A stretch of 64,000 nucleotides of DNA from Gillisia sp. Hel_I_86 (lineage in GTDB: Bacteria; Bacteroidota; Bacteroidia; Flavobacteriales; Flavobacteriaceae): the NCBI RefSeq assembly GCF_007827275.1, contig NZ_VISE01000001.1, positions 2,232,001 to 2,296,000 of the forward strand, written 5' to 3'. The notes under the pieces were generated by a model. That model did not search any database, was not told the origin of the DNA, and saw only the letters and a list, made by a program, of their open reading frames with translations. Numbering within the stretch: position 1 is the stretch's first letter; the number at the start of each line of letters is the position of its first letter. Shown one piece after another: positions 5,232-52,142 of the stretch. The translations under genes and the position numbers were made by a program.

Positions 5232-5275
5232 GTTACAATTGTTACTGTAGATCCCATTACATAAATCTAATTTTG
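5232..5275 (+). promoter_or_regulatory. GTTAC-N4-GTTAC site plus -7 box
   Basis: The sequence GTTAC-AATT-GTTAC (left half-site one mismatch from GTAAC) occupies 5232-5245. A consensus Bacteroidota -7 box TAATTTTG follows at 5268-5275, 22 bp downstream. Same geometry as six other promoters here; it drives the TauE-rhodanese-methyltransferase operon. Confidence 0.7.
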
Positions 5276-5297
5276 TCTTGAATTTAAAAACTAGTAG

Positions 5298-6113
5298 ATG
5301 GAATTACTTGAGATATTTGGTTATATAAGTGCGATTATAATTGGGATATCACTAGGCTTAATAGGAGGGGGAGGATCTATTCTTGCCGTGCCAGTACTGG
5401 CATATTTATTCTCCATGGGTGAGAGGGTAGCTACGGCTTACTCATTGTTTATAGTTGGAGCTAGTGCCCTAGTAGGTGGTATTCAACAACATTATAAAGG
5501 TTATGTGGACTGGAAAACTGCGATAATTTTCGGGATACCAGCTATAATAGGTGTAACTGTGGTGAGGCATTATGTAGTTCCGGCATTACCGGAAACCTTA
5601 TTTTATATTCAGGACTTTGAATTTACCAGAAGGATGGCCATGTTTGGGTTATTTGCTGTGCTAATGATACCAGCTGCTTTTTCCATGTTACGTAAAAAAA
5701 GTACTGATGGTCAAAACAATTTAGAGAAACAGGTTAAGTATAATTATCCGCTCATTTTGGCTGAAGGTCTCATCGTTGGTGCAATTACTGGAATGATTGG
5801 AGCGGGAGGCGGATTTCTAATCATCCCGGCATTGGTAATTTTGGCTAATATTGAAATGAAAACTGCGGTGGGAACTTCGCTAATTATTATAGCCTTTAAA
5901 TCCTTGTTAGGATTCTTCCTTGGAGACGCATTGACTATGGAGGTTGACTGGACCTTCCTTGGAGTAATTATAAGCCTTTCTTTTATAGGTATTTTCCTAG
6001 GATCCTTTTTAAGTAACTACATTAATGGCGAACGTCTAAAAAAAGGTTTCGGTTACTTTATATTTCTTATGGCCGGATTTATTTTTTACATGGAATTTTT
6101 TGTCAAAAATTAA
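5298..6113 (+). CDS. TauE/SafE family sulfite exporter
   Basis: A 271-residue polytopic membrane protein with the internal duplication of the TauE/SafE (DUF81) family. Glycine-rich helices occur near the N-terminus (SLGLIGGGGSILAVP) and again midway (GMIGAGGGFLIIP). Members export sulfite, sulfoacetate or related anions across the inner membrane. The gene heads an operon with a rhodanese 24 bases downstream and a methyltransferase 15 bases after that, under the shared GTAAC-type promoter. Export of sulfite made by the persulfide dioxygenase at 7174 is the likely job (inference). The ATG at 5298 sits 22 bases after the -7 box. Confidence 0.88.
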   Translation: MELLEIFGYISAIIIGISLGLIGGGGSILAVPVLAYLFSMGERVATAYSLFIVGASALVGGIQQHYKGYVDWKTAIIFGIPAIIGVTVVRHYVVPALPETLFYIQDFEFTRRMAMFGLFAVLMIPAAFSMLRKKSTDGQNNLEKQVKYNYPLILAEGLIVGAITGMIGAGGGFLIIPALVILANIEMKTAVGTSLIIIAFKSLLGFFLGDALTMEVDWTFLGVIISLSFIGIFLGSFLSNYINGERLKKGFGYFIFLMAGFIFYMEFFVKN

Positions 6114-6137
6114 GAAACAATTTAAATTTTAAAGAAA

Positions 6138-6455
6138 ATGGAAAACTTAACTACAAATGATTTTGCGAATAATATCAAAAATGATAAAGATGCTGTTATA
6201 ATTGATGTGCGAACTCCCAAAGAATGGAAAGATGGTGTTATACCTAATGCCAAATTGATCAATCTATTGGAACCAAATGTTTTTCAACAAGAAATCGCAA
6301 AATTAGATACAGATAAAAACTATTATATATACTGCCGTAGTGGAAATCGGAGCGGACAGGCTTGCCAGTTAATGGATTCCAAAGGCTTTAATACCTATAA
6401 CCTTGAAGGAGGTATTTTGCAATGGGATGAAAAACTATCTGAACCGGCCTACTAA
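6138..6455 (+). CDS. Single-domain rhodanese sulfurtransferase
   Basis: A 105-residue cytoplasmic rhodanese domain. It has the DVRTPKEWKDGVIPNA entry motif and the active-site loop YCRSGNRSGQA, whose cysteine carries the persulfide. It moves sulfane sulfur between thiols, for example making glutathione- or bacillithiol-type persulfide for a dioxygenase. It sits between the TauE exporter and a methyltransferase in one operon, and a persulfide dioxygenase with its own rhodanese domains follows downstream. Confidence 0.92.
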   Translation: MENLTTNDFANNIKNDKDAVIIDVRTPKEWKDGVIPNAKLINLLEPNVFQQEIAKLDTDKNYYIYCRSGNRSGQACQLMDSKGFNTYNLEGGILQWDEKLSEPAY

Positions 6456-6470
6456 ATTTATTTATACAAG

Positions 6471-7076
6471 ATGAAAGGTAAATCAAAAGATTTTTGGGAA
6501 GAAAGATATAGTGAACAGGATTATGTGTATGGGGAACATCCAAATGTTTTCTTTCAGAATGAACTGGAAAAGTTAGAGCCTGCATCTATACTTCTTCCTG
6601 CTGATGGGGAAGGTCGAAACTCGGTTTTTGCCGCTAAAAAAGGCTGGCAGGTAACTGCCTTCGATCTTAGTAAGGCCGGGAAGGAAAAAGCAGATAAACT
6701 GGCGAAGAAAAATGAGGTGGAAATAAACTTTGAAGTTACTTCCGCAAAAGAATTTGAGAGCAACAAGAAATTTGAAGCAATCGCACTGATTTATGCTCAT
6801 TTTAATGCTGAAGAAAGGCCTGCTATTCATAAGCGCTTATTACAATTTTTAAAGCCCGGTGGAATTTTGATTTTTGAAGCTTTCTCTAAAAATCAACTGG
6901 ATTATAGTTCAGGTGGGCCTAAAGATGTTAAGATGCTTTTTTCCAACGAAGAAATCAGGAGTGAATTTAAAGGACTCAATATAGAATATTTGGAAGAGCT
7001 AAAAATAGAACAGCAGGAGGGGAAATACCATCAGGGGGAAAGTAGTGTCCTGCAAATGCTGGGAAGGAAGAACTAG
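6471..7076 (+). CDS. Class I SAM-dependent methyltransferase
   Basis: A 201-residue protein with a Rossmann-type methyltransferase fold. Visible parts are an FWEERYSEQDYVYGEHPN lead-in, a motif I region at ILLPADGEGRNSVFAAKKGW, the acidic FDLSKAGKEKA strand end and LKPGGILIFEAF near residue 135. The lead-in and short length recall TehB/thiopurine methyltransferase-like enzymes that methylate tellurite, selenite or small thiols. The substrate cannot be read from sequence; the sulfur operon suggests a thiol or chalcogen compound. Last gene of the TauE operon. Confidence 0.85.
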   Translation: MKGKSKDFWEERYSEQDYVYGEHPNVFFQNELEKLEPASILLPADGEGRNSVFAAKKGWQVTAFDLSKAGKEKADKLAKKNEVEINFEVTSAKEFESNKKFEAIALIYAHFNAEERPAIHKRLLQFLKPGGILIFEAFSKNQLDYSSGGPKDVKMLFSNEEIRSEFKGLNIEYLEELKIEQQEGKYHQGESSVLQMLGRKN

Positions 7077-7095
7077 TGCCGTATGTACTAAGTAA

Positions 7096-7139
7096 GTAAC
7101 AATTGTTACTGTAGGAATCAATAACATTGATCAATTTTA
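7096..7139 (+). promoter_or_regulatory. GTAAC-N4-GTTAC site upstream of persulfide dioxygenase
   Basis: Perfect palindrome GTAAC-AATT-GTTAC at 7096-7109. At the standard 22-bp distance lies only a weak -7 match, CAATTTTA (7132-7139), so this promoter may be more activator-dependent than the others or use a different start. Confidence 0.6.
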
Positions 7140-7173
7140 CAAAAGAAAATAATAAAATATAAAATTAATAATT

Positions 7174-8514
7174 ATGAAGATAAAACAGTTTAAAGATGCT
7201 CCATTATCTCATTTTTCTTACGCTTTGGTAAGTAACGGAGAGATGGCACTTGTAGATCCCAGTAGGAACCCTGTTCCATATTATAAATATGCCGAAGAGG
7301 AAAATGCTAAAATAACAGCAGTTTTTGAAACTCACCCGCATGCAGATTTTGTGAGTGGTCACCTGCAAATAAGCAAGGAAACTGGTGCAACCATTTATAT
7401 TAGTGAAAAAGTAGGGGTGAATTATCCGCATCGAAGTTTTGATGAAGGAGATAGTGTCAAAGTAGGAAATGTAACCATCAAACCTATATTTACCCCAGGC
7501 CATTCCCCAGATAGCTTAACTTTTCATGCTTTTGAAAATGATGAACATGTCTTATTTACTGGGGATACATTATTTATTGGAGATGTAGGCCGTCCAGATT
7601 TAAGGGAAAAGGCAGGGAATATGAAGGCGAAAAGGAAAGAGCTTGCCAAAATGATGTACCATTCTATTCAAAATAAATTTAAAGATCTTCCTAACGACGC
7701 TAAAGTTTATCCAGCCCACGGTGCAGGTTCTTTATGCGGAAAAAATATGAGTGATGCCGATAGCAGTACCTTGGGTAATGAACGTATAGGCAACTGGGCA
7801 TTTAAAGATCAAACTGAAGATGAATTTGTTTCAGAAATCTTAAAGGACCAACCATTTATCCCATCTTATTTTGGTTTTGATGTGGATTTAAACCGTGAAG
7901 GTGCAGATAATATTCAATCTTCCAAGTATAGTATACCACTTAAATTAAATGTGAATAATATTGATAATGAATTGCTTGTAGTAGATACAAGGGATGAGCA
8001 GCTTTTTAAAAAAGACCATCTGCCCAATAGTATTAATATCATGGCACGAGGAGAGAATGATAAATTTGAAACTTGGCTTGGGGCTATTATTGAACCAGAT
8101 GAACAATTTAACTTAGTGCTTGAGGGAATCGATAATTTTGATGAAATTCTTGAAAGGGTCGCTAAAATTGGTTATGAAAAACAATTGAAAGGAATTTTCA
8201 CCTTATCTGAAAAGATTACCAATTCTTCAGAAGCGTTTGATTTACTAAGTTTTGATAAGAACAAAGAGAAATATACGATAATAGACATTCGTAATGCCAG
8301 TGAAGTTTTAGAGGGTAAAATCTTTGAAAATGCCCATAATATTCCACTAAATGAGTTACGAAAAAGGATAGATGAGCTTCCAAAAGATAAGCCCATGGTA
8401 GTGCACTGTGCAGGTGGTTATCGTAGTGCTGCGGGAAGTAGTATTTTAGAAAGCGAAATAGATAAAGTATCCGTTTATGATTTAAGTGAGGATATAAAAA
8501 AGTATAAGTCCTAA
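7174..8514 (+). CDS. Persulfide dioxygenase-rhodanese fusion
   Basis: A 446-residue cytoplasmic protein. The N-terminal metallo-beta-lactamase domain (about residues 1-235) has the ETHE1-like iron site: ETHPHADFVSGH (His54, His56, Asp58), FTPGHSPDS and FTGDTLFIGDVGRPDL. A first rhodanese domain (about 255-345) starts VVDTRDEQLF but has no catalytic cysteine. A second one (about 365-446) keeps the active loop HCAGGYRSA. This order, dioxygenase, dead rhodanese, live rhodanese, matches CstB-type enzymes that oxidise persulfides to sulfite and/or thiosulfate. Its stop overlaps the ATG of the dead MFS gene (TAATG). Confidence 0.93.
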   Translation: MKIKQFKDAPLSHFSYALVSNGEMALVDPSRNPVPYYKYAEEENAKITAVFETHPHADFVSGHLQISKETGATIYISEKVGVNYPHRSFDEGDSVKVGNVTIKPIFTPGHSPDSLTFHAFENDEHVLFTGDTLFIGDVGRPDLREKAGNMKAKRKELAKMMYHSIQNKFKDLPNDAKVYPAHGAGSLCGKNMSDADSSTLGNERIGNWAFKDQTEDEFVSEILKDQPFIPSYFGFDVDLNREGADNIQSSKYSIPLKLNVNNIDNELLVVDTRDEQLFKKDHLPNSINIMARGENDKFETWLGAIIEPDEQFNLVLEGIDNFDEILERVAKIGYEKQLKGIFTLSEKITNSSEAFDLLSFDKNKEKYTIIDIRNASEVLEGKIFENAHNIPLNELRKRIDELPKDKPMVVHCAGGYRSAAGSSILESEIDKVSVYDLSEDIKKYKS

Positions 8515-9730: not shown

Positions 9731-9802
9731 CCTGAAAAAATTGCTATTTTTTCATTTTAAGATACTGATATATTTAAACTTAGATGAGCTCCTATTTGGT
9801 TT

Positions 9803-9846
9803 GTAACAAAGGTTACCGAGATAACACTGACTATTCAATATATTCG
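9803..9846 (+). promoter_or_regulatory. GTAAC-N4-GTTAC site plus -7 box, YeeE operon
   Basis: GTAAC-AAAG-GTTAC at 9803-9816 and TATATTCG (one mismatch to TAnnTTTG) at 9839-9846, again 22 bp apart. It starts the two-gene YeeE operon. Confidence 0.7.
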
Positions 9847-9862
9847 CATAAAATTATATAAA

Positions 9863-10420
9863 ATGGAATGGATTTATGAACCTTGGCCTTGGTATATATC
9901 TGGCCCTCTCATTGCAGTAACTATGTTTGTACTGCTTTATACAGGAAAGCAATTTGGAATGTCATCAAACCTGCGCACCATGTGCAGTATTGGAGGTGCT
10001 GGCAAAGCAGCTGATTTCTTCAAATTTGATTGGAAAAAAGAGCGTTGGAACCTTATGGTCGTACTAGGTACTGTTTTGGGCGGTTTTTTTGCATCAACTT
10101 ATCTATCTAATAACACTGTGGAAATAAATGAGCAAGTAGCCAATAAATTAAGCACTGAATATGGAATAAATAGTGCTGGGGAAGCTTATATGCCTACGGA
10201 AATATTTGCCTTGGAAAATCTTGGTAACCCATTGGTTCTTTTCGTGCTAATCGTAGGAGGTTTCATGGTGGGCTTTGGTGCTCGATATGCTGGTGGGTGT
10301 ACTTCAGGACATGCGATTTCTGGATTGAGCAACCTGCAACTCCCTTCACTAATTGCTGTGATAGGCTTTTTTATTGGTGGACTCATAATGATCCATTTGC
10401 TTTACCCATTAATATTTTAA
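9863..10420 (+). CDS. YeeE/YedE family membrane protein, subunit 1
   Basis: A 185-residue inner-membrane protein with about four to five hydrophobic helices. The signature GARYAGGCTSGHAISGLS (about residues 136-153) has the conserved cysteine of YeeE/YedE (DUF395) proteins. This family includes the thiosulfate channel TsuA, which passes thiosulfate along a chain of cysteines. A second cysteine lies in SNLRTMCSIGG. In Bacteroidota the protein is often split in two; the second half directly abuts this gene. Thiosulfate uptake is the likely role, fitting the sulfur-oxidation genes around it. Confidence 0.9.
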   Translation: MEWIYEPWPWYISGPLIAVTMFVLLYTGKQFGMSSNLRTMCSIGGAGKAADFFKFDWKKERWNLMVVLGTVLGGFFASTYLSNNTVEINEQVANKLSTEYGINSAGEAYMPTEIFALENLGNPLVLFVLIVGGFMVGFGARYAGGCTSGHAISGLSNLQLPSLIAVIGFFIGGLIMIHLLYPLIF

Positions 10421-10837
10421 ATGATGAAATATATTACTTACGTCTTTATCGGTTTCTTTTTTGGAATTATCATGTACAAATCGGAAGCAGCTTCCTGGTT
10501 TAGAATTTACGAGATGTTCGAATTTGGTTCTTTTCATATGTACGGTATAATCGGTTCGGCTCTGCTAATCGGTGTTTTGGGCGTACAAATAATTAAAAGA
10601 AAAAATATAAAAGCCATGGGAGGGCGGGAAATGCAATTAAAACCGAAGGAAATGAGTATCCCGCGTTATTTGATTGGAGGTATTATCTTTGGTTTGGGAT
10701 GGGCTCTTGCCGGTGCTTGTCCAGGACCAATGTATGTACTTGCCGGTTCCGGTTACATTTCGATATTCGTGGTTATCGCTGCCGCTTTATTTGGCACCTT
10801 TGTATATGGTCTATTGAGGCATAAATTGCCGCATTAA
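10421..10837 (+). CDS. YeeE/YedE family membrane protein, subunit 2
   Basis: A 138-residue membrane protein with four helices, starting immediately after the stop of its partner, so the two are translationally coupled. The signature GLGWALAGACPGPMYVLAGSG is the second-half counterpart of the cysteine motif in the first protein. Together they would form one YeeE-type thiosulfate/sulfur permease. Confidence 0.9.
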   Translation: MMKYITYVFIGFFFGIIMYKSEAASWFRIYEMFEFGSFHMYGIIGSALLIGVLGVQIIKRKNIKAMGGREMQLKPKEMSIPRYLIGGIIFGLGWALAGACPGPMYVLAGSGYISIFVVIAAALFGTFVYGLLRHKLPH

Positions 10838-11652
10838 TGTCATTGTAGTGATAGTGGCCCTGAAAGTTTTCTATACTCTTATTTTTTAGACGAGTTAGCT
10901 CCTGAACGAAGTACCAGAGGTTTTGGCAAGTTAAAAAAAACACTACGAAGGGTGAAATGGCCCTCTTTACCGTTGAATATGTTAACACCATTCCGTCATT
11001 GCTGCAAGGCGCAATTAAAATACTGCGTATTGATAACAATGGAAATAAATTACTTCTTTAGTTCTTAGATTGTGGTGTTTGACCTGCGCGGTCAGCATAA
11101 CTTGTTGTCTTAACAGGATGAAAATCGAAATAAAACTATCGCCGAAAAGCATATGGATCTAATCATTTTTCCCATATAAAAGATGGATGAATGGGTTGTC
11201 AAATATAAATTATAGAGAGTATTTATTTTTCAGAGCTAATACCCAACTAAAAGAAATTCTTGATACTATGGACAGCGTTGTCTTTCTTAAAATGGATATG
11301 TATTTTCTTTTATATATAAAAGAAAAAGCTAAAGTGAACCAATATAAAGTATTGCAAGTGACTCATTAGGAAATTGTATAGGACCCTCATATACCCAAGT
11401 TGTTATCTCCAGATTTTAAAAACCTAGAACTGAAAGATAAAATTGTCCTTAATAGAAAAAATATAGTAGTAATAAGTTTATTGTTTGTCTTATCATAATG
11501 TAAAGACGGAGTTTTGTTTATAGGATAAAATATTAATGCTTTAGAGCTTTTGTTCTTAATAGGTAAACTGATTATTCTGGATTATCTTAGTTAGAACGAA
11601 TTATAGTTAATGTTATCTGCGTTCACGGGACTTAAAGACCGAAATACTACCT
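10838..11652. other. Gene-poor stretch, probably eroded DNA
   Basis: About 815 bp in which I find no protein I can defend. A 60-codon + frame at 11187-11369 has no recognisable features. A 36-codon segment near 10945-11060 looks protein-like but ends in all frames. It lies between an intact operon and a run of pseudogenes, so eroded coding DNA is likely. Confidence 0.4.
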
Positions 11653-26015: not shown

Positions 26016-26059
26016 GTAACATTTGTTACAGATGCCTTCATCTATAATAATTATCTTTG
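26016..26059 (+). promoter_or_regulatory. GTAAC-N4-GTTAC site plus -7 box
   Basis: GTAAC-ATTT-GTTAC at 26016-26029 and a consensus box TATCTTTG at 26052-26059, 22 bp apart. The predicted transcript start falls at about the ATG (26066), so the mRNA would be leaderless or nearly so. Confidence 0.75.
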
Positions 26060-26065: not shown

Positions 26066-26416
26066 ATGGCACACAAGGCTTATATAGCAATTTTTCTTGT
26101 CTTTATTCTACTGGGCAAGTTTGTTACCTTGGATACCAATATTCTGAATAAGTTGGTAAATTCCGATAAGATAAGCTATGTAAAGAAGTCATGTGATTTG
26201 AAAAACAATAAAAATTCTCTTGATTTTGAATTCACTCAAATTCAGGATGGAATTCAAATTACCTTTCATTCCTTTTGTAATTCGGTGTTTCAAATAGAAT
26301 CACTACCCACTTTTGATCTAAGAATCCCTTCAAACTTTAAACGTAATTTCAAGCCTATTCTAGCTGAAACCAAAACGTTTAATCACAAATTTGTTCCTCC
26401 TCCTAAATTATCCTGA
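26066..26416 (+). CDS. Small secreted protein of unknown function, paralogue of 45661
   Basis: A 116-residue protein with an N-terminal hydrophobic segment (AYIAIFLVFILLGKFVTLDT) and a C-terminus ending in FVPPPKLS. Two cysteines lie in the mature part. It is a clear paralogue of the protein at 45661-46020: the shared signal is YIAI-x5-GK-VT-D and the shared tail PPPK, and both genes begin right at a GTAAC-type promoter. A TTG nine bases upstream extends the frame but is part of the -7 box, so ATG 26066 is the start. I do not recognise a family; it is probably anchored in or exported through the inner membrane. Confidence 0.7.
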   Translation: MAHKAYIAIFLVFILLGKFVTLDTNILNKLVNSDKISYVKKSCDLKNNKNSLDFEFTQIQDGIQITFHSFCNSVFQIESLPTFDLRIPSNFKRNFKPILAETKTFNHKFVPPPKLS

Positions 26417-26578: not shown

Positions 26579-27172
26579 ATGAATAAAAAAACAAAAAATA
26601 ATCTTATAGAATTCGGCATTACAGGAACTATTATCCTCACATTGTTTTTAACAGGATTACATACTGAAGTTTTCGGGTTTGTACAACGAGGCATATTGAA
26701 AACCGGTTTGATGGATCCAGATGTGGAGTCGAAGTCTACAGCGGCAGAACTATCAAAGAACCCTAAGGCAGATTTCAATTTAAGTCTTATCAATTCCAAA
26801 GGGGAGCGTGTGGAAATGGAGGAACTTCGTGGCAAAGTGATCTTCTTTAATATTTGGGCCACTTGGTGCCCTCCTTGTGTGGCAGAAATGCCTGGAATAA
26901 ATAATATGTACAATGATATGAAAGGCGATGATATTGCTTTCATTATGCTTTCTGTAGATAACGATTTTCAAAAAGCAATTGATTTTAATAAAAGAAAAGG
27001 CTATGATTTTGAAGTTTATAAATTGGCAGGTAGCTTACCACCTATGTATGCGTCACAAGCCATCCCAACTACTTATATAATTGATTCCAAGGGAAACTTG
27101 GCCCTAACCCATGAAGGTATGGGAGATTATGATAGCAAAGAATTTAAAGCATTTTTAACTAGTCTCAAATAA
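26579..27172 (+). CDS. TlpA-like membrane-anchored thioredoxin
   Basis: 197 residues: one N-terminal membrane anchor (about 12-30), then a thioredoxin fold with the active site NIWATWCPPCVAEMP (Cys97, Cys100) and the cis-proline region QAIPTTYIIDSKGN. It faces the periplasm and reduces disulfides, as in cytochrome c maturation or metal-site assembly. DsbD, encoded 50 bases downstream, is the expected electron donor. Confidence 0.92.
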   Translation: MNKKTKNNLIEFGITGTIILTLFLTGLHTEVFGFVQRGILKTGLMDPDVESKSTAAELSKNPKADFNLSLINSKGERVEMEELRGKVIFFNIWATWCPPCVAEMPGINNMYNDMKGDDIAFIMLSVDNDFQKAIDFNKRKGYDFEVYKLAGSLPPMYASQAIPTTYIIDSKGNLALTHEGMGDYDSKEFKAFLTSLK

Positions 27173-27222: not shown

Positions 27223-29283
27223 ATGAGATCTAGAAATCTTTATTTACTCTTATTTATAGTTTTTGTCTCCTCGTTTTCAACATTTGGTCAGGTAATACCA
27301 CCGCCTAATTGGGAGGTATCAATAGATATGAAGAACCCAAAGGTAGGAGATACTTTGGTTTTAAGCTTTAAGGCAGAAATACCTGAGGATTGGTATTTAT
27401 ATTCCAGTGATTTTGATCCCGATCTGGGACCAATGATCACTGAAATTAATTTTATTGAAAATTCTGATTTTGAAGTTATTGGGGATCTTATTCCAATAGG
27501 CTCAAAAGAAAAATATGATCCATTATGGGAAGGTAACTACACCTATTTCATTGATAAAGCGGAATTTCAGCAACAAGTAATGGTATTAAAGAACGATCCA
27601 TTTATTGAAGCGGTAGCTATTTATCAAATCTGTTCTGATGTGACGGGACAATGTATTCCTTTTGAGACAGATTTGACATGGAGTAAAGAGGAAGAATTAG
27701 AAGCAGTTCAGAAAGGAGATGTAGATAGCCTTACGAAAGATTTAAAATCCTTTAAAAATGATTTTAAAGTTGAAGAGAAGGAGGAGGGCGGAGCTTTTAT
27801 TTTTACTTTTTTCCTACTTTCCTTTGGTGCTGGGCTGGCAGCTTTACTTACTCCCTGTGTTTTTCCTATGATCCCCATGACGGTAACCTATTTTACCAAA
27901 TCTAGCGGAAGTCGCGCAAATGGCATCAGCCAGGCCTTATTGTATGGGGTTTCGATTATTTTAATTTATACCCTAATAGGAACTGTCTTCTCTTTGTTTT
28001 TTGGAGCAGAATTTGCTAATTTTCTTAGTACCCATTGGCTTCCTAATCTATTTTTCTTTGCAGTTTTCTTGTTATTTGCATTATCATTTTTTGGATTATT
28101 TGAAATTCGATTACCAAACTCTTTTGTAAATAAAATAGATGCGCAATCCAACAAAGGTGGGATCTTGGGAATATTCTTTATGGCATTTACTTTGGTATTG
28201 GTTGGTTTTAGTTGCACTGGTCCAATTGCAGGAACCATCCTTTTACAGGCTGCAAGTGGAGAAACCTTAAAACCATTAGTTGGGATGCTGGGCTTCTCGT
28301 TAGCTTTTGCACTTCCCTTCACATTATTAGCCATCTTTCCGCAGTGGTTGAAATCTTTGCCGAAAAGTGGAAGCTGGCTTAATACCGTTAAAGTGGTGCT
28401 AGGTTTTGTAGAACTGGCATTGGCTCTAAAATTTTTAAGTATAGTAGATCAGGTGTATCATTGGGATTTTCTAGATCGTGATATATACCTAGCACTTTGG
28501 ATCGTGATTTTTTCATTTCTAGGATTTTACTTATTGGGTAAAATTCAATTTCCTCATGAAAAGAAAACGGAGAGTGCTTCAGTAGCTAGGGTCATATCTG
28601 CCATATTGGTTTTTAGTTTTGTGGTCTATTTGATTCCCGGATTGTTTGGAGCTCCTCTAAAGCCATTAGCTGGCTATTTGCCACCTTTGGGAAGCCAGAG
28701 TTTTAATATGCTTTCATCAAGACCTGAAATGCTAAGCTTAAGCGAAAACAATCTCACAGAGTGTGAGGCTCCTAAATATGGTGATTTTTTAGAGCTGCCG
28801 CATAACATCCAGGGATATTTTGATTATGACCAGGCACTGGAATGTGCCCAAAAGCAAAACAAACCCTTATTTATTGACTTTACGGGACACGGGTGTGTGA
28901 ATTGTAGAGAGATGGAAGCTACAGTTTGGAGTGATCCTGAAGTTTTAAAACGCCTCAAAAATGATTATGTGGTTGTGGCACTCTATGTAGATGAAAAAAC
29001 AGAATTACCAGAATCTGAATGGTACATCTCCGATTATGATGGAAAAACAAAGAAGACCATTGGGAAACAGAATTTGGATTTTATGATCCAAAAGTTAAAT
29101 GCCAATGCCCAGCCTTACTATACCTTAGTAGATACTAATGGCTCGTTATTGAGTACACCAAAAGGCTATGATCTAAATGTTAAAAATTTCGTTGAATTTT
29201 TGGATAATGGCACGCAAGAATTCGAAGCAAGACAAGAAAAAAATAGTGCATCTACCGGAATAGTTCAGCAAGAAAATGAATGA
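27223..29283 (+). CDS. dsbD: Thiol:disulfide interchange protein DsbD
   Basis: 686 residues with a signal peptide (ending near FSTFGQ). Next come a periplasmic N-terminal domain (about 22-150), a helix bundle of about eight segments (190-480) with the two redox cysteines in LLTPCVFPMIPM and GFSCTGPIAG, and a C-terminal thioredoxin domain with FIDFTGHGCVNCREME. It carries electrons from cytoplasmic thioredoxin across the inner membrane to periplasmic partners such as the adjacent TlpA-like protein. The architecture is complete. Confidence 0.94.
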   Translation: MRSRNLYLLLFIVFVSSFSTFGQVIPPPNWEVSIDMKNPKVGDTLVLSFKAEIPEDWYLYSSDFDPDLGPMITEINFIENSDFEVIGDLIPIGSKEKYDPLWEGNYTYFIDKAEFQQQVMVLKNDPFIEAVAIYQICSDVTGQCIPFETDLTWSKEEELEAVQKGDVDSLTKDLKSFKNDFKVEEKEEGGAFIFTFFLLSFGAGLAALLTPCVFPMIPMTVTYFTKSSGSRANGISQALLYGVSIILIYTLIGTVFSLFFGAEFANFLSTHWLPNLFFFAVFLLFALSFFGLFEIRLPNSFVNKIDAQSNKGGILGIFFMAFTLVLVGFSCTGPIAGTILLQAASGETLKPLVGMLGFSLAFALPFTLLAIFPQWLKSLPKSGSWLNTVKVVLGFVELALALKFLSIVDQVYHWDFLDRDIYLALWIVIFSFLGFYLLGKIQFPHEKKTESASVARVISAILVFSFVVYLIPGLFGAPLKPLAGYLPPLGSQSFNMLSSRPEMLSLSENNLTECEAPKYGDFLELPHNIQGYFDYDQALECAQKQNKPLFIDFTGHGCVNCREMEATVWSDPEVLKRLKNDYVVVALYVDEKTELPESEWYISDYDGKTKKTIGKQNLDFMIQKLNANAQPYYTLVDTNGSLLSTPKGYDLNVKNFVEFLDNGTQEFEARQEKNSASTGIVQQENE

Positions 29284-44675: not shown

Positions 44676-45098
44676 TTAAAGCTCAATACTTAAATATCCT
44701 CTTTTCTGAAGTTGAAAATTATGTAACAAGCCATTGTCCACAACTTCTAACTCATGCGGTAAATCTTCTTTACTAACTTTGAATTTTTTCAAAGATAAAC
44801 CACAAACTACAATTTTTACGTGGGCTTTTTTTGCTTTTGCTATAAAGCTCTTCATCATTTCCTTATCTATAAGGCTTTCAACAGTTTTTCCGCAAATGAT
44901 CGCTTGAAAATCGCCAAAACTTTCTCCATCTTCTTCCGCTAGAGCCTCTGCTGTTAAAATAATAGGCTGAAGTTGAGGGATCTTTTTTGTAAGCACTACA
45001 TAATTATGTGAATGCTGTGCTTGTTTAGTAGTTTGTGCATTTAGAGAATTGGTAAATGTTAGTGCTAGGATAGTTAAACCTAAAATTAGCTTTTTCAT
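44676..45098 (-). CDS. Periplasmic DsrE-family protein
   Basis: 140 residues with a signal peptide (ending TNSLNAQ) and a DsrE-like fold. It has FGDFQAIICGKTVESLID, KIVVCGLSLKKFKVSKEDLP and VVDNGLLHNFQLQKRGYLSI. Two cysteines (in IICGK and VVCGL) sit at positions used for sulfur carriage. DsrE-family proteins bind sulfane sulfur. It is in the operon of the DoxX protein and small secreted protein, under a GTAAC-type promoter. Confidence 0.85.
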   Translation of the reverse strand: MKKLILGLTILALTFTNSLNAQTTKQAQHSHNYVVLTKKIPQLQPIILTAEALAEEDGESFGDFQAIICGKTVESLIDKEMMKSFIAKAKKAHVKIVVCGLSLKKFKVSKEDLPHELEVVDNGLLHNFQLQKRGYLSIEL

Positions 45099-45189: not shown

Positions 45190-45600
45190 TTATTGTTTTT
45201 GAAATGTTTGAATGTCGTTTAAGATAAAAAATAGCAATCCCCCTAAAATTGCCATATTCTTAAAAAGAGGGCCTAAAGTATGTATTTGTCCAGCCTGCAC
45301 GGTCAAGGTTATTGGAACTAAAACCGCCGCTAGCGCCATTGCCGCCCATTTGGTTTTATAACCAACTAAAAGCAAAAATCCTGCAATCATCATTAAAACT
45401 CCAGAGATGATTATCAAATACTCGGGATTGCCAAAAAAATAGGCAATTCCTTTGAACCTGGCTTGGTCAATTCGGTATATAGTCTTTTCGAGGTTTAGAA
45501 TATGATTAAAACTCGCCACCAAAAATATGCCGCTCAATAAAATACGAAACAGCTGAACCGATCTATAGGAAACTGAAATGGTTGTTTTCATAAGATTCAA
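45190..45600 (-). CDS. DoxX-family membrane protein
   Basis: 136 residues with four helices: LFRILLSGIFLVASFNHILN, EYLIIISGVLMMIAGFLLLV, a third with TKWAAMALAAVLVPITLTVQ and a last one before DIQTFQKQ. It belongs to the DoxX/DoxD superfamily. Some relatives take part in thiosulfate:quinone oxidoreduction or oxidative-stress complexes. Next to DsrE and under the sulfur-type promoter, a role in thiosulfate or thiol oxidation is plausible. Confidence 0.85.
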   Translation of the reverse strand: MNLMKTTISVSYRSVQLFRILLSGIFLVASFNHILNLEKTIYRIDQARFKGIAYFFGNPEYLIIISGVLMMIAGFLLLVGYKTKWAAMALAAVLVPITLTVQAGQIHTLGPLFKNMAILGGLLFFILNDIQTFQKQ

Positions 45601-45660: not shown

Positions 45661-46020
45661 TTATACTATTGAATATTTTGGAGGCGGATATAATTTTCCG
45701 GGATGTATACTTATAACCAATGGCCTTATATATACATATTTCCTAAAATCCAGGTCCTGGGTTTCAGGAATTTCTTTTCCCACAATAAAATGATAATTAT
45801 TTGAACAGATCCTGGCCAGTTTCAAGATTTGAATTGGAGAGGAGTTTTCAATATTGTGGACCGTTTCCTTCAAATTATTATCTTTCTTTTCACAGAAAGG
45901 ATTAAGCAGGACTACCTGATCAGTTTTAAGCATTAAACCGATTATATCAGAATCTACCGTGACCAGTTTTCCTGAAAAAACCATCAACAGAACTATCGCT
46001 ATATATTGTTTTTCGAACAT
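45661..46020 (-). CDS. Small secreted protein of unknown function, paralogue of 26066
   Basis: 119 residues: N-terminal hydrophobic segment (QYIAIVLLMVFSGKLVTVDS), two cysteines, and a C-terminus SIHPGKLYPPPKYSIV. It is paralogous to 26066-26416 in signal, length and PPPK tail. A TTG at 46032 extends the frame but forms part of the -7 box; ATG 46020 is the real start, about three bases from the predicted transcript start. First gene of the DoxX-DsrE operon. Unknown function; perhaps a periplasmic thiol/metal protein. Confidence 0.72.
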   Translation of the reverse strand: MFEKQYIAIVLLMVFSGKLVTVDSDIIGLMLKTDQVVLLNPFCEKKDNNLKETVHNIENSSPIQILKLARICSNNYHFIVGKEIPETQDLDFRKYVYIRPLVISIHPGKLYPPPKYSIV

Positions 46021-46029: not shown

Positions 46030-46073
46030 CAAATATATATGATTTTACCTCTACTCCATGTAACCATTGTTAC
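46030..46073 (-). promoter_or_regulatory. GTAAC-N4-GTTAC site plus -7 box, leftward
   Basis: GTAAC-CATT-GTTAC at 46060-46073 and, on the reverse strand, TATATTTG at 46037-46030, 22 bp apart. It drives 46020 leftward. Confidence 0.75.
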
Positions 46074-46097: not shown

Positions 46098-46141
46098 GTA
46101 ACAATGGTTACCGAATGTCTATTCAAATAGCCTTATATTTA
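46098..46141 (+). promoter_or_regulatory. GTAAC-N4-GTTAC site plus -7 box, rightward
   Basis: GTAAC-AATG-GTTAC at 46098-46111 and TATATTTA (one mismatch) at 46134-46141, 22 bp apart. The two sites between 46020 and 46170 are 38 bp apart centre to centre, one for each direction. Confidence 0.75.
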
Positions 46142-46169
46142 AAGGCAATAATCAAAAAGAAAGAAGATC

Positions 46170-46556
46170 ATGGAATATTATTTTGCTAAAACGGTAACTG
46201 GAGAATTTGAAGAAGTAATTAAAAAAGTTACACATGAATTGGAGAAGGAAGACTTTGGGATATTAACGGAAATAGATATTTCAGCAACCTTGAAGAAGAA
46301 ATTAGATATCAATTTTAAAAAATATCGAATTTTGGGCGCTTGCAACGCTCCTTATGCGTATAAAGCTTTAAAAGCGGAAGATAAGATAGGCACAATGTTG
46401 CCTTGCAATGTGATTGTCCAAGAATTGGAAAATGGAAAAATCGAAGTCGCAGCAGTAAATCCAATGGCCTCCATGCAAGCGGTAAAAAATAAAGATTTAG
46501 ACAACATCGCCAAGGAGATTGGATATAAATTAGAAAAAGTGGTAAACCAAGTTTAA
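46170..46556 (+). CDS. DUF302 protein
   Basis: 128 residues of a single DUF302 domain: YYFAKTVTGEFEEVIKKVTH, FGILTEIDISATLKKKLD, ILGACNAPYAYKALKAEDK and LPCNVIVQELENGKIEVAAV. Two conserved cysteines, GACN and LPCN, are positioned to bind a thiol or metal. DUF302 proteins are common with sulfur oxidation and copper genes, but the biochemical role is not settled. First gene of the rightward operon ending at the multicopper oxidase or beyond; a second DUF302 copy follows 17 bases on. Confidence 0.9.
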   Translation: MEYYFAKTVTGEFEEVIKKVTHELEKEDFGILTEIDISATLKKKLDINFKKYRILGACNAPYAYKALKAEDKIGTMLPCNVIVQELENGKIEVAAVNPMASMQAVKNKDLDNIAKEIGYKLEKVVNQV

Positions 46557-46573
46557 ACTCTCAATTGTAGAAA

Positions 46574-47044
46574 ATGAAAAGAGAAAATCCTGCCAAAAAA
46601 GAAATCAGTAATCAGAATTATACAGAAAGTCGTAGAACTACCTATTGTATTAGTCAGCGGTACGGTTCCCAGACTTTTTCTGAAATTCTAAAAAATATAA
46701 AAGAAGCATTGACCAAAAGGGATTTTAATGTCCTTTTGGAATTAGCTCTGGATGAATATTTAAAAGAGGATATAGAGGATATGCCACCACATGTCATTCT
46801 ATCCGTATGTAATTCTGGAACCGCAGCCAAAGCACTAGCTGCCGATCTTCAAAGCGGAGTTTTTTTACCCTGCAACATAACAGTAAAAGAAGTAGATCAG
46901 GGGAACATTGAAGTTTCTATTGAGGATACTACTGTTACTTGGGCTTCATCAAATACAGATGAATTAGGCGAACTAGCTAAAAACACTACAGAAACACTTA
47001 AACAAATTTTATCAGAAATTGATCAGCAGAGAATGAAATTGTAA
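46574..47044 (+). CDS. DUF302 protein, second copy
   Basis: 156 residues: a polar extension of about 25 residues, then a DUF302 domain (YGSQTFSEILKNIKEALTKR, VILSVCNSGTAAKALAADL, GVFLPCNITVKEVDQGNIEV). It keeps the two conserved cysteines. It is closer in sequence to the IS-interrupted copy at 16059 than to its neighbour 46170. Fourteen bases separate it from the multicopper oxidase gene. Confidence 0.9.
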   Translation: MKRENPAKKEISNQNYTESRRTTYCISQRYGSQTFSEILKNIKEALTKRDFNVLLELALDEYLKEDIEDMPPHVILSVCNSGTAAKALAADLQSGVFLPCNITVKEVDQGNIEVSIEDTTVTWASSNTDELGELAKNTTETLKQILSEIDQQRMKL

Positions 47045-47057
47045 ACACCAATAAGAT

Positions 47058-48704
47058 ATGAGTATCCAAAAGCATGATAGAAGAAATTTCATAAAACTTG
47101 GATGTGCTGGCGCATCTATACTTATCGCTTGGCCATTATTTCAGTCCTGTGCCAATGAAAATAAAAATAGTGATCCATTACGACTGAATTCCGATTTTAA
47201 ACCCGACCTAGATATTAAACTGACTGCGGTAGAACAGGAAATTTCTATACTTGAAGGAAGAAAAACAATGTGCTGGACTTTTAAAAGTGAATTGATACTA
47301 GGAGACTCCAGCAGTCTTCAGCAAATTCCTGATAGTTATCTGGGTCCCATAATTAAAGTGAACAAAGGCCAAAAAATACGAATACGCTTTCAAAATGAAC
47401 TGCCACAAGAAAGTATTGTGCATTGGCATGGAATGCATGTACCGGAGCAGTACGACGGCCACCCAACAGACATTATATCTAATGGCCAAACTTATGTGTA
47501 CGAATACGAAGTAATGAACCGTGCCGGAACTTATTGGTTTCATCCCCATCCGCATGGTAACACTGGTGAGCAGGTTTATAATGGTCTTGCAGGTTTGCTA
47601 CTAGTTTCAGATAAGGAAGAGGAAAATTTAAACCTCCCCACTGGAGAATTTGATTTTCCGGTGGTAATTCAGGATCGCACTTTAGATGATAATAATCAAC
47701 TGGTTTATCTTGATGGTGGAAGAATGGACAGGATGATGGGGTTTTTAGGTGATAAAATCTTTATAAACGGCAGACCAGAGCAAGAATTATCTCTAAAAGC
47801 AGGATGCAATTATAGGCTTAGGTTCCTTAATGGCTCGAATTCGCGAATTTATAAACTTGCCTGGGATAATGGGGAACCGCTTAAAGTAATTGGAATTGAT
47901 GGCAGTATTTTGGAACAACCCAAAGTAATGCCTTATGTAATGCTGGCTCCCGCAAAAAGAATAGATATATGGCTGGATTTAAAAAATAAAAAGCAAGGTG
48001 ATGAAATTGAATTAAAGAGCCTGGAATTTGAAAGCGGGATGATGGGAGGAATGATGAATGGCGGAATGATGGGTGGAAGCAATACTGGTTTGCCTTTGGG
48101 GTCTGAATACAGTCTTTTTAAAATTAAACTGAACGAAAGTGGGTCGAACGATTTTCTACTTCCTGAAAACCTTGTGCCTTATAATAAATTGAATCCAACC
48201 ACCGCAGTTAACCGAAATAACCCCAGGGAATTTAATTTTTTTATGCAAGGAATGCAATGGACAATCAATGGTAGAACTTGGGAGCCTACTGAAGTAGCTA
48301 AAGAAGAAACAGTAAAATTAGATACCACCGAAATATGGCAGCTTTCCAATAAAGGAGGTAAAATGATGGGTGGTGGCGGTATGATGGGTGACGGCGGGAT
48401 GATGGGACGAGGAAATGAAGGTGGCGGTATGGGGAATATGATGCAGATGCCACACCCAATTCATATACATCAGGTACAATTTAATATTTTGGAATATGAT
48501 ACCTCAGAAATGGATGTCATGGTTTGGAATTCTATCAAGGATGGCTTTATTGATGAAGGCTGGCAGGATACAGTGCTTTTAATGCCGGGAATGAAAATCA
48601 AAATAATAATGCGCTTTTCAAATTTCAAAGGTCTTTTCGTTTACCACTGCCATAATCTTGAACACGAAGATATGGGAATGATGAGAAATTTTAAAATAGA
48701 ATAA
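47058..48704 (+). CDS. Multicopper oxidase, Met-rich (CopA/CueO-like)
   Basis: 548 residues with a Tat-like leader (HDRRNFIKLGCAGASILIAW). The copper ligands are complete: HWHGMHVP, WFHPHPHGNTGEQ, HPIHIHQVQFN and HCHNLEHEDMGMM, the last with the cysteine and axial methionine of the type 1 site. Two Met-Gly-rich inserts (around MGGMMNGGMMGGS and MMGGGGMMGDGGMM) are typical of cuprous oxidases, where they gather Cu(I). It likely oxidises Cu(I) in the periplasm to limit toxicity; other substrates are possible. It lies between DUF302 genes and a Met-rich lipoprotein. Confidence 0.93.
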   Translation: MSIQKHDRRNFIKLGCAGASILIAWPLFQSCANENKNSDPLRLNSDFKPDLDIKLTAVEQEISILEGRKTMCWTFKSELILGDSSSLQQIPDSYLGPIIKVNKGQKIRIRFQNELPQESIVHWHGMHVPEQYDGHPTDIISNGQTYVYEYEVMNRAGTYWFHPHPHGNTGEQVYNGLAGLLLVSDKEEENLNLPTGEFDFPVVIQDRTLDDNNQLVYLDGGRMDRMMGFLGDKIFINGRPEQELSLKAGCNYRLRFLNGSNSRIYKLAWDNGEPLKVIGIDGSILEQPKVMPYVMLAPAKRIDIWLDLKNKKQGDEIELKSLEFESGMMGGMMNGGMMGGSNTGLPLGSEYSLFKIKLNESGSNDFLLPENLVPYNKLNPTTAVNRNNPREFNFFMQGMQWTINGRTWEPTEVAKEETVKLDTTEIWQLSNKGGKMMGGGGMMGDGGMMGRGNEGGGMGNMMQMPHPIHIHQVQFNILEYDTSEMDVMVWNSIKDGFIDEGWQDTVLLMPGMKIKIIMRFSNFKGLFVYHCHNLEHEDMGMMRNFKIE

Positions 48705-48800
48705 CAATAGAGAAAATATTATTTATAAGGGAGACTTTTTCAGAAGGTTCAAAAACCGAAAAGGTCGTTAGACTAATTTTTAAACTAAATACATAATAAA

Positions 48801-49367: not shown

Positions 49368-49372
49368 TAATT

Positions 49373-49567: not shown

Positions 49568-49611
49568 TAATAAAGAGGTTTTTTAGAGTTTACAATAATT
49601 TCAGATAACAG

Positions 49612-49640
49612 AAGGCTTAGGAATGACCTAAGCCTTTTTA
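49612..49640. terminator. Bidirectional terminator
   Basis: AAGGCTTAGG-AATGA-CCTAAGCCTT with T-rich tail, between the convergent SHOCT and porin genes. Confidence 0.85.
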
Positions 49641-50984
49641 GAAATTATAGTTCAAAATTAAATCCACATGAAATAAATCTGTTTTATTCAAATAGAAATT
49701 AGGATTATCTGGAAAATCCCCACTAGCAAATTTACCTACGAATAAAAGTTCAGGTTTTAAATTCTTCCATTTTTTGATATCGAAAAACAAATCTAGATTT
49801 ATGTGTGTGTAATCTGGAACGGCATACTTATTAAGAGTAGGGTCTGAAACAGAGGGTTTCCATTGATGCCCAGCACTAAAAATTGTTTTTAAATTAAATT
49901 TTTCTTTTCCAAATGCTAATGTATTAGTATAGTAAAGTACCAGTGCGTGATTATCCCCAGTCCCTTCACTTCGCTCTCTTTTTTGAAAACTGAAAAGAAA
50001 TTCCCTACCCCATTCCCTTGGAAAAACAAACTGACCTTTTTTGGTGATTCGGTTATATGATAATGAAAGAGAAGAGTTGCTCCAATCATAAGCTGCTTTA
50101 ATCCCGATATTATCTGAAGAATTACTCTGAAAATAACTTAAGGAATCAATTGCATTTCCGCCATTATTTATTTTGTTTTGATGCAACCATTCCGCTTCAA
50201 TATTGAAACTTTTTGAAACTTGATATTTAGGTTTTAAATACAGGGTATTAGATACATTATCCGTATAATAATTCCATAACTCTACAGAGGTGTTTTGAGT
50301 AAGATTAAAATTGGCATTGATGATAGCTAAATAATCTGAATCTGTATTTCCTCCATACAAACTTGGAGATCCATCAATATTTCTTCCTTCTCCATAAGTT
50401 CCTATACTCTCCCCGATAGAATAAAACTCTCCTGTGGATCTTGGTGCAATTTGATTAAATATCCCTGCTTGTATTTTGTTTTTTTTGGGGCTGCTATAAG
50501 CATACCAAAGACCTTGAGCCAAGGTTGGGATCATACGACCGTCTTGTGGATTTACTAAAGGAGATTTAATTTTCATTCTACCTAAAGTAAATTCGTGCTG
50601 GGCAGTTTTGTAATTAGCATATAGCTCACCCAAAATAAAAATATATTTGTTATCTAAATTTATTCGATCAAACAAACCTTCCTCATACCGACTCAATTTT
50701 CCAGTTGCCATATCAGGAATGCTAAGATCTTGGATATTTAAATTATTGGAATTATATACCGCTCCTCCAAAGCTTATTTTTTCTTTGAGTGTGAGTTCAT
50801 ATTTAATATGGCCTCCAGTGGCCAAAGCGGTAAAGTCCTTAAGATCCCCTTTATTAAAAGTATTCATATAATAGCTTCTCCATTGTCCGGATAATTTTCC
50901 CTTGGCAGTTGGTTTATCTGATTCTTGAGCGAGACTGAGAAATGGAAATAGTAAAAATAAATAACGTAAGCTGTTAAAATTCAT
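49638..50984 (-). CDS. Outer-membrane porin-like protein
   Basis: 448 residues: signal peptide ending LSLAQ, then alternating strands throughout and a final aromatic strand VDLILNYNF, as in outer-membrane beta-barrels. The N-terminal part (GQWRSYYMNTFNKGDL) resembles OprD/alginate-export-type or Opr family porins of Bacteroidota. Its ATG overlaps the stop of the TsdA-type cytochrome gene by one base, so the two are coupled. A channel for thiosulfate, tetrathionate or related anions is a reasonable guess. Confidence 0.8.
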   Translation of the reverse strand: MNFNSLRYLFLLFPFLSLAQESDKPTAKGKLSGQWRSYYMNTFNKGDLKDFTALATGGHIKYELTLKEKISFGGAVYNSNNLNIQDLSIPDMATGKLSRYEEGLFDRINLDNKYIFILGELYANYKTAQHEFTLGRMKIKSPLVNPQDGRMIPTLAQGLWYAYSSPKKNKIQAGIFNQIAPRSTGEFYSIGESIGTYGEGRNIDGSPSLYGGNTDSDYLAIINANFNLTQNTSVELWNYYTDNVSNTLYLKPKYQVSKSFNIEAEWLHQNKINNGGNAIDSLSYFQSNSSDNIGIKAAYDWSNSSLSLSYNRITKKGQFVFPREWGREFLFSFQKRERSEGTGDNHALVLYYTNTLAFGKEKFNLKTIFSAGHQWKPSVSDPTLNKYAVPDYTHINLDLFFDIKKWKNLKPELLFVGKFASGDFPDNPNFYLNKTDLFHVDLILNYNF

Positions 50985-52015
50985 TATTTAGTTTTAGTGA
51001 TTTGGTATTGCTCTTCATAATATTTAATAATCGGAGGAAAAGGGCCATACTTGTGTTGGCTAGCAGAAAATGAATCCTCCCAAGGGCCATATGGAGTTGA
51101 AACCGGTTTTAATTTTTTATCGGGATAATCACTTTGGGTATTGTTTTTTACCGGTCTATCAAAACTGTTTATATACCCTGCCAAATGATAGGCTTCTTCA
51201 TCGGTTAATTTGGGGTTATCCCAAGTGGCCTCGCCAAATGGCATATTTCCTTTTATAAATTCAGCAGAGGTGATTACCCGGTGCATTCCTGCACCAGTAT
51301 TATAACTGTCTTGACCCCAAAGTGGAGGGTATTGGTACCCTTTGGTAGAATCAGCTAATTTCACTCCCTGCCCATTTTCTCCATGACAAACTGCACATTC
51401 TTTAGAAAATAATGATTTTCCTTTATCTAGATCTACCGCTATATCTGGAAGTTCTATTTTGGCATAACCTTTAAATTCTTTTTCCCGTTCCGGGGGCAGT
51501 CCCTCTCCTAACCATTCCATATAAGCTACTATAGCTTTCATTTCTTTGGAATCTATAGGAAGCTTTTTCCCATTCATACTTCGCTCCATACAACCGTTTA
51601 TTCTTCCTTCTATAGTACCTATACTATTGGAGCGGCCGCTAAATTGAGGAAATCTTTCTGTCACTCCTACCCAAGATGCAGAACCGGCTTGAGTTCCCGC
51701 TTTTAAATGACAATTCATACACGCCAAATTATTACCGGCATAATGCATAGCGGGATCTTTAGCTTGAGGTCCCATATACTTAGGAGACTCTGCAATAAGT
51801 TGGTATCCATACTTCACCTGAGGATCCATAAACCCAAAATCAAGCTCTGCTTCAATATCTTTAGGCTCCCAATCTTCAGCACTTATTTTTTTTTCAATAA
51901 ATAGGTATGGATCTGAATTATATAAATAAAGACCAGAGAAAGTGATAATAGTTAATGCTAAAAGAGAGCTAAATATATAGACGATAGATTTTGCTAGTGA
52001 TTGATAATTATCCAT
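50984..52015 (-). CDS. tsdA: TsdA-type dihaem c cytochrome (thiosulfate dehydrogenase)
   Basis: 343 residues: an N-terminal helix (about 10-32) serving as signal anchor, then two cytochrome c domains with haem motifs CMNCH (99-103) and CAVCH (207-211). The conserved segments HYAGNNLACMNCHLKAGTQA and RINGCMERSMNGKKLP match TsdA. Cys142 is at the place of the cysteine that ligates haem 1 in thiosulfate dehydrogenases. TsdA joins two thiosulfates to tetrathionate, or runs in reverse. The final 50 residues are a tail not seen in the smallest family members. Promoter of the shared GTAAC type. Confidence 0.85.
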   Translation of the reverse strand: MDNYQSLAKSIVYIFSSLLALTIITFSGLYLYNSDPYLFIEKKISAEDWEPKDIEAELDFGFMDPQVKYGYQLIAESPKYMGPQAKDPAMHYAGNNLACMNCHLKAGTQAGSASWVGVTERFPQFSGRSNSIGTIEGRINGCMERSMNGKKLPIDSKEMKAIVAYMEWLGEGLPPEREKEFKGYAKIELPDIAVDLDKGKSLFSKECAVCHGENGQGVKLADSTKGYQYPPLWGQDSYNTGAGMHRVITSAEFIKGNMPFGEATWDNPKLTDEEAYHLAGYINSFDRPVKNNTQSDYPDKKLKPVSTPYGPWEDSFSASQHKYGPFPPIIKYYEEQYQITKTK

Positions 52016-52098
52016 TTAAAAAAATATTATTTCAAAATTTCTTTTAATATTTAGAACAAATGAAAATGATGATTTATTAATATTTAGAGATAAACCAA

Positions 52099-52142
52099 CA
52101 AATCTAAAAATTCAAATCTTTAAATTATGTAACAAATGTTAC
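52099..52142 (-). promoter_or_regulatory. GTAAC-N4-GTTAC site plus -7 box, tsdA
   Basis: GTAAC-AAAT-GTTAC at 52129-52142 and, on the reverse strand, TAGATTTG at 52106-52099, 22 bp apart. It drives tsdA and the porin. The remaining 230 bp to the divergent gene at 52372 show nothing clear. Confidence 0.78.

Follow-up and report, generated by a model that had tools for sequence, protein, structure and literature searches.

Palindromic promoter sites and a candidate Crp/Fnr-type activator of sulfur genes in Gillisia and other Flavobacteriaceae

A 64,000-nucleotide stretch of the Gillisia sp. Hel_I_86 genome (positions 2,232,001 to 2,296,000 of contig NZ_VISE01000001.1, assembly GCF_007827275.1; here called the window) contains seven palindromes of the form GTAAC-N4-GTTAC. 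A first-pass annotation, made from the letters alone, had read them as sites of an activator that touches RNA polymerase, followed, 22 bp past the inner half-site, by a −7 box, TAnnTTTG. Which protein might act at these sites, and on which genes? Our analysis points to a protein of 210 amino acids encoded elsewhere in the same genome: the palindromes are very probably class II sites at which a dimer of this Crp/Fnr protein would activate sulfur genes. Unless a locus or contig label precedes them, positions of seven digits below are those of the contig and shorter ones are those of the window.

Palindromes and spaced boxes in the window and the genome

We found all seven palindromes at the positions reported, six as exact copies and the one at 5232 with a single mismatch. 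On the forward strand, GTTACAATTGTTAC (5232 to 5245, first half GTTAC) is followed by the exact TAnnTTTG box TAATTTTG (5268 to 5275), GTAACAAAGGTTAC (9803 to 9816) by TATATTCG (9839 to 9846, one mismatch), GTAACATTTGTTAC (26016 to 26029) by the exact box TATCTTTG (26052 to 26059), and GTAACAATGGTTAC (46098 to 46111) by TATATTTA (46134 to 46141, one mismatch). On the reverse strand, a second GTAACAATGGTTAC (46060 to 46073) is paired with TATATTTG (46037 to 46030) and a second GTAACATTTGTTAC (52129 to 52142) with TAGATTTG (52106 to 52099), both boxes being exact. A box at 22 bp with no more than one mismatch was therefore present at six of the seven palindromes, as had been claimed; the seventh, the exact forward-strand copy GTAACAATTGTTAC (7096 to 7109), has the box CAATTTTA (7132 to 7139) with two mismatches, the one that the annotation had called weak. 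In 200 first-order Markov sequences fitted to the window, exact palindromes occurred at 0.035 per 64 kb, with at most 1 in any sequence, and none of the 200 held a palindrome together with its box.

Scanning the whole genome, a check that the annotation had proposed, gave 10 matches to the exact palindrome plus 22 bp plus TAnnTT and 0 to the reversed pattern. The genome is one contig of 4,245,106 bases and contains the exact palindrome at 15 places; the window has 6 of these, where an even spread would give 0.23 (P = 5e-8). Four of the 15, inside open reading frames (ORFs), lack a box, as does the intergenic palindrome at 4099149. The remaining 10 have TAnnTT exactly 22 bp off in nine cases, the exception being that at 7096, and these nine give ten composites of palindrome and spaced box: five in the window, two at 2307772 (one on each side), and one each at 2809123, 2813794 and 3837830. 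The palindrome at 2307772 (L016:11772), a single copy with boxes 22 bp away on both sides, sits between sulfite-dehydrogenase-like and SoxB-like genes, both of which score below the NCBIfam equivalog cut-offs; it may be one site serving two divergent promoters.

The candidate regulator and its sites across genomes

A search of the genome for Crp-type helix-turn-helix (HTH) domains gave six places, two of which are the same stretch repeated at the contig ends. One crp/fnr gene (2808476 to 2809108), encoding the 210-amino-acid protein, stops 14 bp ahead of the palindrome at 2809123. Downstream of this palindrome lie TauE, rhodanese and methyltransferase genes, the same set as in the window, and downstream of that at 2813794 lie a fatty-acid-hydroxylase-like gene and one for a persulfide-dioxygenase-rhodanese protein. 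The 210-amino-acid protein belongs to the Crp/Fnr superfamily (PF00027, E = 2.9e-10; PF13545, E = 1.1e-8; both over the cut-off), and none of the NCBIfam equivalog models matched it at its own cut-off. An AlphaFold2 model of the L060 protein, which is 90% identical, has a mean predicted local distance difference test (pLDDT) score of 81.6 and a predicted template modelling (pTM) score of 0.57, and Foldseek matched it to CRP-family structures, the first being 4ev0 (template modelling [TM] score of 0.76). The presence of such a gene beside such a site supports the Crp/Fnr assignment at which the annotation had hinted.

The annotation had also stated that no candidate regulator gene lies in the window. 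This holds for the intact candidates, namely the gene above and a paralogue at 4235775 to 4236389, but not for a decayed crp/fnr copy (about 10954 to 11480, forward strand), which follows a pair of YeeE genes and whose matches are fragmentary, broken by stops and shifts of frame. In relatives (L143 to L159), a gene resembling YeeE comes after an intact orthologue. The paralogue, near the contig end, is 60% identical to the 210-amino-acid protein, with an identical recognition helix, and probably also acts at the sites. Downstream of it lie a one-mismatch site, whose box is exact, and another persulfide-dioxygenase-rhodanese gene. The contig ends (C1:1-8869 and C1:4236211-4245106) repeat each other, the last 8,896 bases aligning with the first 8,869 at 99.6% with no mismatch and 14 gaps, likely as the result of an unclosed circle. 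The repeat shows one crp paralogue's site twice, the spacers differing by a one-base indel.

As the annotation had proposed, we looked for a Crp/Fnr gene conserved with the sites across the family. At the orthologue loci of the best 80 of 83 relatives, taken from a scan of named genomes, the exact palindrome was present in 64 and the composite in 58. These loci hold 126 exact palindromes, compared with an average of 0.85 and a maximum of 6 for 59 permuted half-sites and with 0 to 2 for each other spacer from 0 to 11 bp. None of the 126 lies inside any frame of at least 120 amino acids, and two lie within opposite-strand frames of 85 and 98 amino acids. The sequence TAnnTTT stands exactly 22 bp off, on at least one side, at 97 sites; it stands at 21 bp at 7 sites and at 20 bp alone at 1, and 21 sites have none.

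The regulator and the sites also went together from genome to genome. We surveyed 100 genomes of the family with an orthologue cut-off of E ≤ 1e-60, which was picked after the listing had been seen. Composite sites, 231 in total, were present in 67 of the 76 orthologue-bearing genomes, and 3 of the 24 genomes without an orthologue at this cut-off had one site each (Fisher P = 1e-11, with relatedness ignored). The reversed control gave 14 matches in the same 100 genomes. In a contrast set of 20 loci with paralogues 31 to 47% identical, two (L178 and L179) had one exact site each. In a search of the phylum, the composite occurred in 31 of 198 genomes, comprising 12 of the 19 family members and 19 of the 179 other genomes, 16 of the latter group with a single site.

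The 22-bp spacer kept at 97 of the 126 sites is that of class II Crp/Fnr promoters. With a 14-bp palindrome, it puts the centre of symmetry 29.5 bp ahead of the first base of the box. The annotation had set this centre about 43 bp upstream of the transcription start; the class II spacing that this implied was supported, but the centre is more likely to lie near −41.5, a figure that presupposes a box starting at −12. NtcA likewise has a class II site at about −41.5 and a TAN3T box, according to excerpts of PMC3898017. Among 114 composites at the orthologue loci, a TTG starting 18, 19, 20, 21 or 22 bp ahead of the box occurred only 1 to 4 times each; for starts 23 to 26 bp ahead, the palindrome itself leaves no room. 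The fixed upstream place and the lack of a visible −33 element argue for an activator, and the fixed class II spacing supports the earlier suggestion that it would touch polymerase.

In 163 distinct proteins (144 with Val, 16 with Glu, 2 with Thr and 1 with Ile), we compared the residue at the place of CRP Glu181 and FNR Glu209, position 183 here, with one base of the half-site closest to the gene, its third, which was left free. The 103 Val proteins with a site had A/T in 88 cases, A/C in 7, G/T in 6, T/T in 1, A/G in 1 and G/C in 0, and the 12 Glu proteins with a site had G/C in 8, A/C in 4 and A/T in 0. Three additional Glu-type proteins (L229, L230 and L232), counted apart, all had G/C sites. 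These counts provide supporting evidence that a single helix residue tracks a single site base, Val with A:T and Glu with G:C. A similar correlation between residue and base, at positions 180 and 181, is described for HcpR, DNR and NnrR in PMC1274295.

At L167, L170, L172 to L174 and L223 to L233, GTGAC-N4-GTCAC stands downstream of Glu-type paralogues, with the 22-bp spacing kept; at L167, L170 and L172 to L174, the next ORF encodes a small protein that begins with a KKNMGS- or KNMGS-like sequence. At L176 and L234, GTATC-N4-GATAC stands, as judged by eye, directly after the crp stop of paralogues with a TTRVV helix, perhaps as a further change of specificity.

Taken together, the sites, their spacing, the genes served, the adjacency of the regulator, the co-occurrence and the helix-site correlation, all read from sequence, suggest how the system might work. 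The Crp/Fnr dimer would bind GTAAC-N4-GTTAC, centred some 41.5 bp ahead of the transcription start, and would contact RNA polymerase at promoters that show a −7 box but no trace of a −33 TTG. This contact would turn on the handling of sulfide, persulfide and thiosulfate. The predicted targets are the TauE exporter, rhodaneses, persulfide dioxygenase, YeeE importers, DsrE/DoxX and ResA/DsbD, together with the TsdA-type cytochrome, the SoxB-like and sulfite-dehydrogenase-like proteins and an efflux operon.

Genes served by the sites

The annotation had described a sulfur-oxidation and metal-thiol regulon, and the genes after the sites agree with it, comprising sulfide, persulfide and thiosulfate genes plus some metal and efflux genes. 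On the forward strand of the window, the palindrome at 5232 precedes genes for a TauE/SafE-type exporter (5298 to 6113; PF01925, E = 1.1e-40), a rhodanese (6138 to 6455; PF00581, E = 5.3e-19) and a TPMT/TehB-like methyltransferase (6471 to 7076; PF13649, E = 1.4e-11). That at 7096 precedes a metallo-beta-lactamase-rhodanese gene of the persulfide-dioxygenase type, named by domain make-up (7174 to 8514; PF00753 and PF00581), and that at 9803 the YeeE/YedE-type sulfur transport pair (9863 to 10420 and 10421 to 10837; PF04143 and PF20398). After the palindrome at 26016 come a gene for a small protein of 116 amino acids without a Pfam or PHROG match (26066 to 26416), whose ATG lies 7 nt beyond the box, and genes for a ResA/TlpA-like thioredoxin (26579 to 27172) and DsbD (27223 to 29283). 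The palindrome at 46098 precedes genes for two DUF302 proteins and a multicopper oxidase (46170 to 48704; PF03625 twice, PF07732/PF07731/PF00394).

On the reverse strand, the palindrome at 46060 is followed by a gene for a small protein of 119 amino acids (45661 to 46020), again without a Pfam or PHROG match and by eye resembling that at 26066 to 26416, and by DoxX (45190 to 45600; PF07681) and DsrE (44676 to 45098; PF02635). That at 52129 is followed by genes for a SoxA/TsdA-type dihaem cytochrome c (50984 to 52015) and an OprD-type porin (49638 to 50984; PF21342, PF00034 and PF03573 for the two). A third small protein like those at 26066 to 26416 and 45661 to 46020 was found in L186, and in all three the ATG lies 7 to 10 nt beyond the last base of the −7 box, such that the mRNA may be leaderless.

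Outside the window, the genes served in Gillisia include the SoxB-like and sulfite-dehydrogenase-like genes, a DsrE gene and an outer-membrane efflux gene. Gillisia carries two sets of the TauE-rhodanese-methyltransferase and persulfide-dioxygenase genes, in the window (5298 to 8514) and at L017:6188-13100, one set with an intact regulator and the other near the decayed regulator copy.

Across the family, genes after sites distant from the regulator were mostly sulfur and thiol genes. To reduce the bias towards neighbours of the regulator, we took, among the matches listed, the first 40 places that were not less than 20 kb from an orthologue on the same contig, a rule that does not fix the real distance in fragmented assemblies (for example, G037). 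Of the 42 composite matches at these places, 34 have an ORF and 8 do not, and 32 of the ORFs are distinct, two genes having been counted twice. Pfam matches among the 34 ORFs were rhodanese (nine), metallo-beta-lactamase (five, one gene twice), Thioredoxin_9 (four), outer-membrane efflux (three), DsrE (two) and cytochrome c (two). Found once each were cytochrome bd, molybdopterin oxidoreductase, cytochrome c peroxidase, peptidase M28, Tll0287-like, DUF302, copper-binding, sulfur transport, pyridine-nucleotide oxidoreductase, HMA, methyltransferase and others. Near the regulator, the 114 composites gave 103 ORFs, including TauE (32), rhodanese (25), metallo-beta-lactamase (18), Crp (7) and DUF983 (6), with fewer of others.

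Possible signal, rival explanations and meaning

Three cysteines are conserved among 143 orthologues: Cys77 in all 143, Cys83 in 134 and Cys84 in 137, with 141 having Cys77 plus at least one of the other two. All 16 Glu-type proteins and all 4 other paralogues likewise have Cys77, and the Glu-type proteins have Cys83 in 0 of 16 and Cys84 in 2 of 16. We take the stretch with these cysteines, from an alignment by eye, to be the one where CRP carries its cyclic AMP (cAMP) phosphate cassette; it reads GDTCAMTLSCC here, and the structure model is uncertain there. Given the persulfide-directed regulon, we consider a reaction of these thiols with reactive sulfur the likeliest signal; that persulfide or polysulfide acts at Cys77 together with Cys83 or Cys84 seems to us slightly less than an even call. 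In Acinetobacter baumannii, a Crp-like protein is reported to be persulfidated (excerpts of PMC7315123). More tentatively, this Crp/Fnr activator may have lost cAMP sensing and may instead read persulfide or polysulfide through Cys77 and Cys83/84 in what was the ligand pocket. It would then serve as a master switch for the handling of sulfide and thiosulfate in most Flavobacteriaceae, inside a broader clade in which exchanges of single helix residues re-aim the proteins (GTAAC, GTGAC and perhaps GTATC).

Escherichia coli CRP and FNR share their domain make-up, fold and class II spacing with the candidate, and the FNR site, as here, is 14 bp long with two 5-bp halves; the FNR/CRP half-sites are TTGAT or TGTGA, and GTAAC stands in their place. 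The regulator scores 56 bits against the CRP equivalog cut-off of 266 and differs from FNR in having only three conserved cysteines (77, 83 and 84) and no four-cysteine cluster motif, which makes an FNR-type cluster unlikely. SqrR/BigR, CstR and FisR belong to protein families other than Crp/Fnr. They control sulfide- and persulfide-oxidising genes and sense through cysteines, both as proposed for the candidate, and excerpts of PMC9918477 and PMC8148161 describe SqrR, BigR and CstR as repressors and FisR as an activator. The site is a special case of the NtcA site GTAN8TAC, but NtcA answers to 2-oxoglutarate and serves nitrogen genes (excerpts of PMC3898017). NtcA also has Val at the aligned recognition-helix place, and our regulator scores 49.5 bits against the NtcA equivalog cut-off of 244.95.

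Several observations weigh against the proposed system. The box at 7096 is poor. Relaxed motifs were rarer in the Gillisia genome than their reversed controls: 132 against 266 per strand for the palindrome with one mismatch, 25 against 50 for GTWACN4GTWAC, and 110/98 against 258/239 for the three-mismatch composite. Only the exact palindrome with its box is therefore informative, and we discarded the relaxed searches (palindrome with one mismatch, composite with three), in which the signal was drowned by chance. No exact site was found in 16 of the 80 orthologue loci; a one- or two-mismatch composite lies less than about 100 bp from the regulator stop in 5 of these and elsewhere in the locus in 4, and 7 (L086, L124, L131, L133 to L135 and L137) have none even with two mismatches. 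Nine of the 76 orthologue-bearing genomes lack a composite site; their orthologues are only 50 to 54% identical, and their loci have one- or two-mismatch composites (seven) or an exact palindrome without a spaced box (two). About three changes on the tree account for the Val/Glu label, and the helix-site correlation therefore rests on few independent events; the Fisher tests ignore relatedness. Cys77 stands alone in two orthologues (L147 and L159), and the pLDDT of the model is below 50 at residues 80 to 84, which puts the cysteine geometry, disulfide or polysulfide, beyond judging from the model. Finally, the efflux operon (3837830) and the DUF302-multicopper oxidase genes are metal or general stress genes.

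Could the regulator be HcpR2, a Crp/Fnr protein of Bacteroides, Clostridium and Thermotogales, with the sulfur genes a side branch of an hcp-controlling regulon? The two share a superfamily and, according to excerpts of PMC1274295, an identical consensus, GTAACnnnnGTTAC; the annotation's statement that the consensus could not be assigned to a known one thus did not hold, as it also fits GTAN8TAC. CRP's Glu181 is replaced in both proteins, and the model resembles the Porphyromonas gingivalis HcpR structure 9day (TM of 0.64). According to the same paper, however, position 181 of HcpR2 is Pro, where the 143 orthologues have Val (140), Thr (2) or Ile (1), and HcpR2 controls hcp. We found hcp (PF03063) in 0 of the 100 family genomes, Gillisia included, 81 of which are at least 90% complete and at most 5% contaminated, and in 5 of 14 control genomes, Bacteroides among them. 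The HcpR name was absent from the 52 PDB sequences matched by the profile. Because hcp was not found in the 100 family genomes and residue 181 differs, we rejected HcpR2 membership, and this explanation is most unlikely. It is very unlikely, too, that a different, unlinked protein binds the palindrome and that the Crp/Fnr gene is merely one target, as might be suggested by the sites that precede crp in some genomes and by the Crp-type HTH in 7 of the 103 served ORFs near the regulator: the helix residue and the half-site base covary, and the sites track the gene across genomes.

The sites might instead be operators from which a Crp/Fnr repressor leaves on a signal, much as SqrR, BigR and CstR keep sulfur genes repressed unless sulfide or sulfane sulfur is at work (excerpts of PMC8148161 and PMC9918477). 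We consider this very unlikely, given that the sites keep one activating distance and lie upstream of the box, not over it; with that fixed distance and no −33 TTG seen, the promoters would be weak unaided. A possibility that deserves appreciable, if lesser, credence keeps the same activator and sites and changes the signal to oxygen or redox state, nitric oxide, or a metal such as copper or zinc on the three cysteines. Clustered cysteines are able to bind metals, and multicopper oxidase, HMA, copper-binding and efflux genes are among those served, but among the served genes whose family is known, the majority work on sulfide, persulfide, thiosulfate or thiols.

The preferred reading is thus of a Crp/Fnr activator of sulfur genes. 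Its site consensus is already known, and the sulfur switch appears to be undescribed: our searches of open-licence PMC papers gave none on a Crp/Fnr regulator of sulfur genes in Bacteroidota. Sulfur-oxidation genes are common in Flavobacteriaceae, and we found no description of their control in that literature. A candidate regulator with a sharp site and a gene list makes this control testable and the regulon predictable across the family. It may also add a Crp/Fnr sulfur sensor to the types already known, and the paired change of helix residue and site base suggests a simple code for the whole clade.

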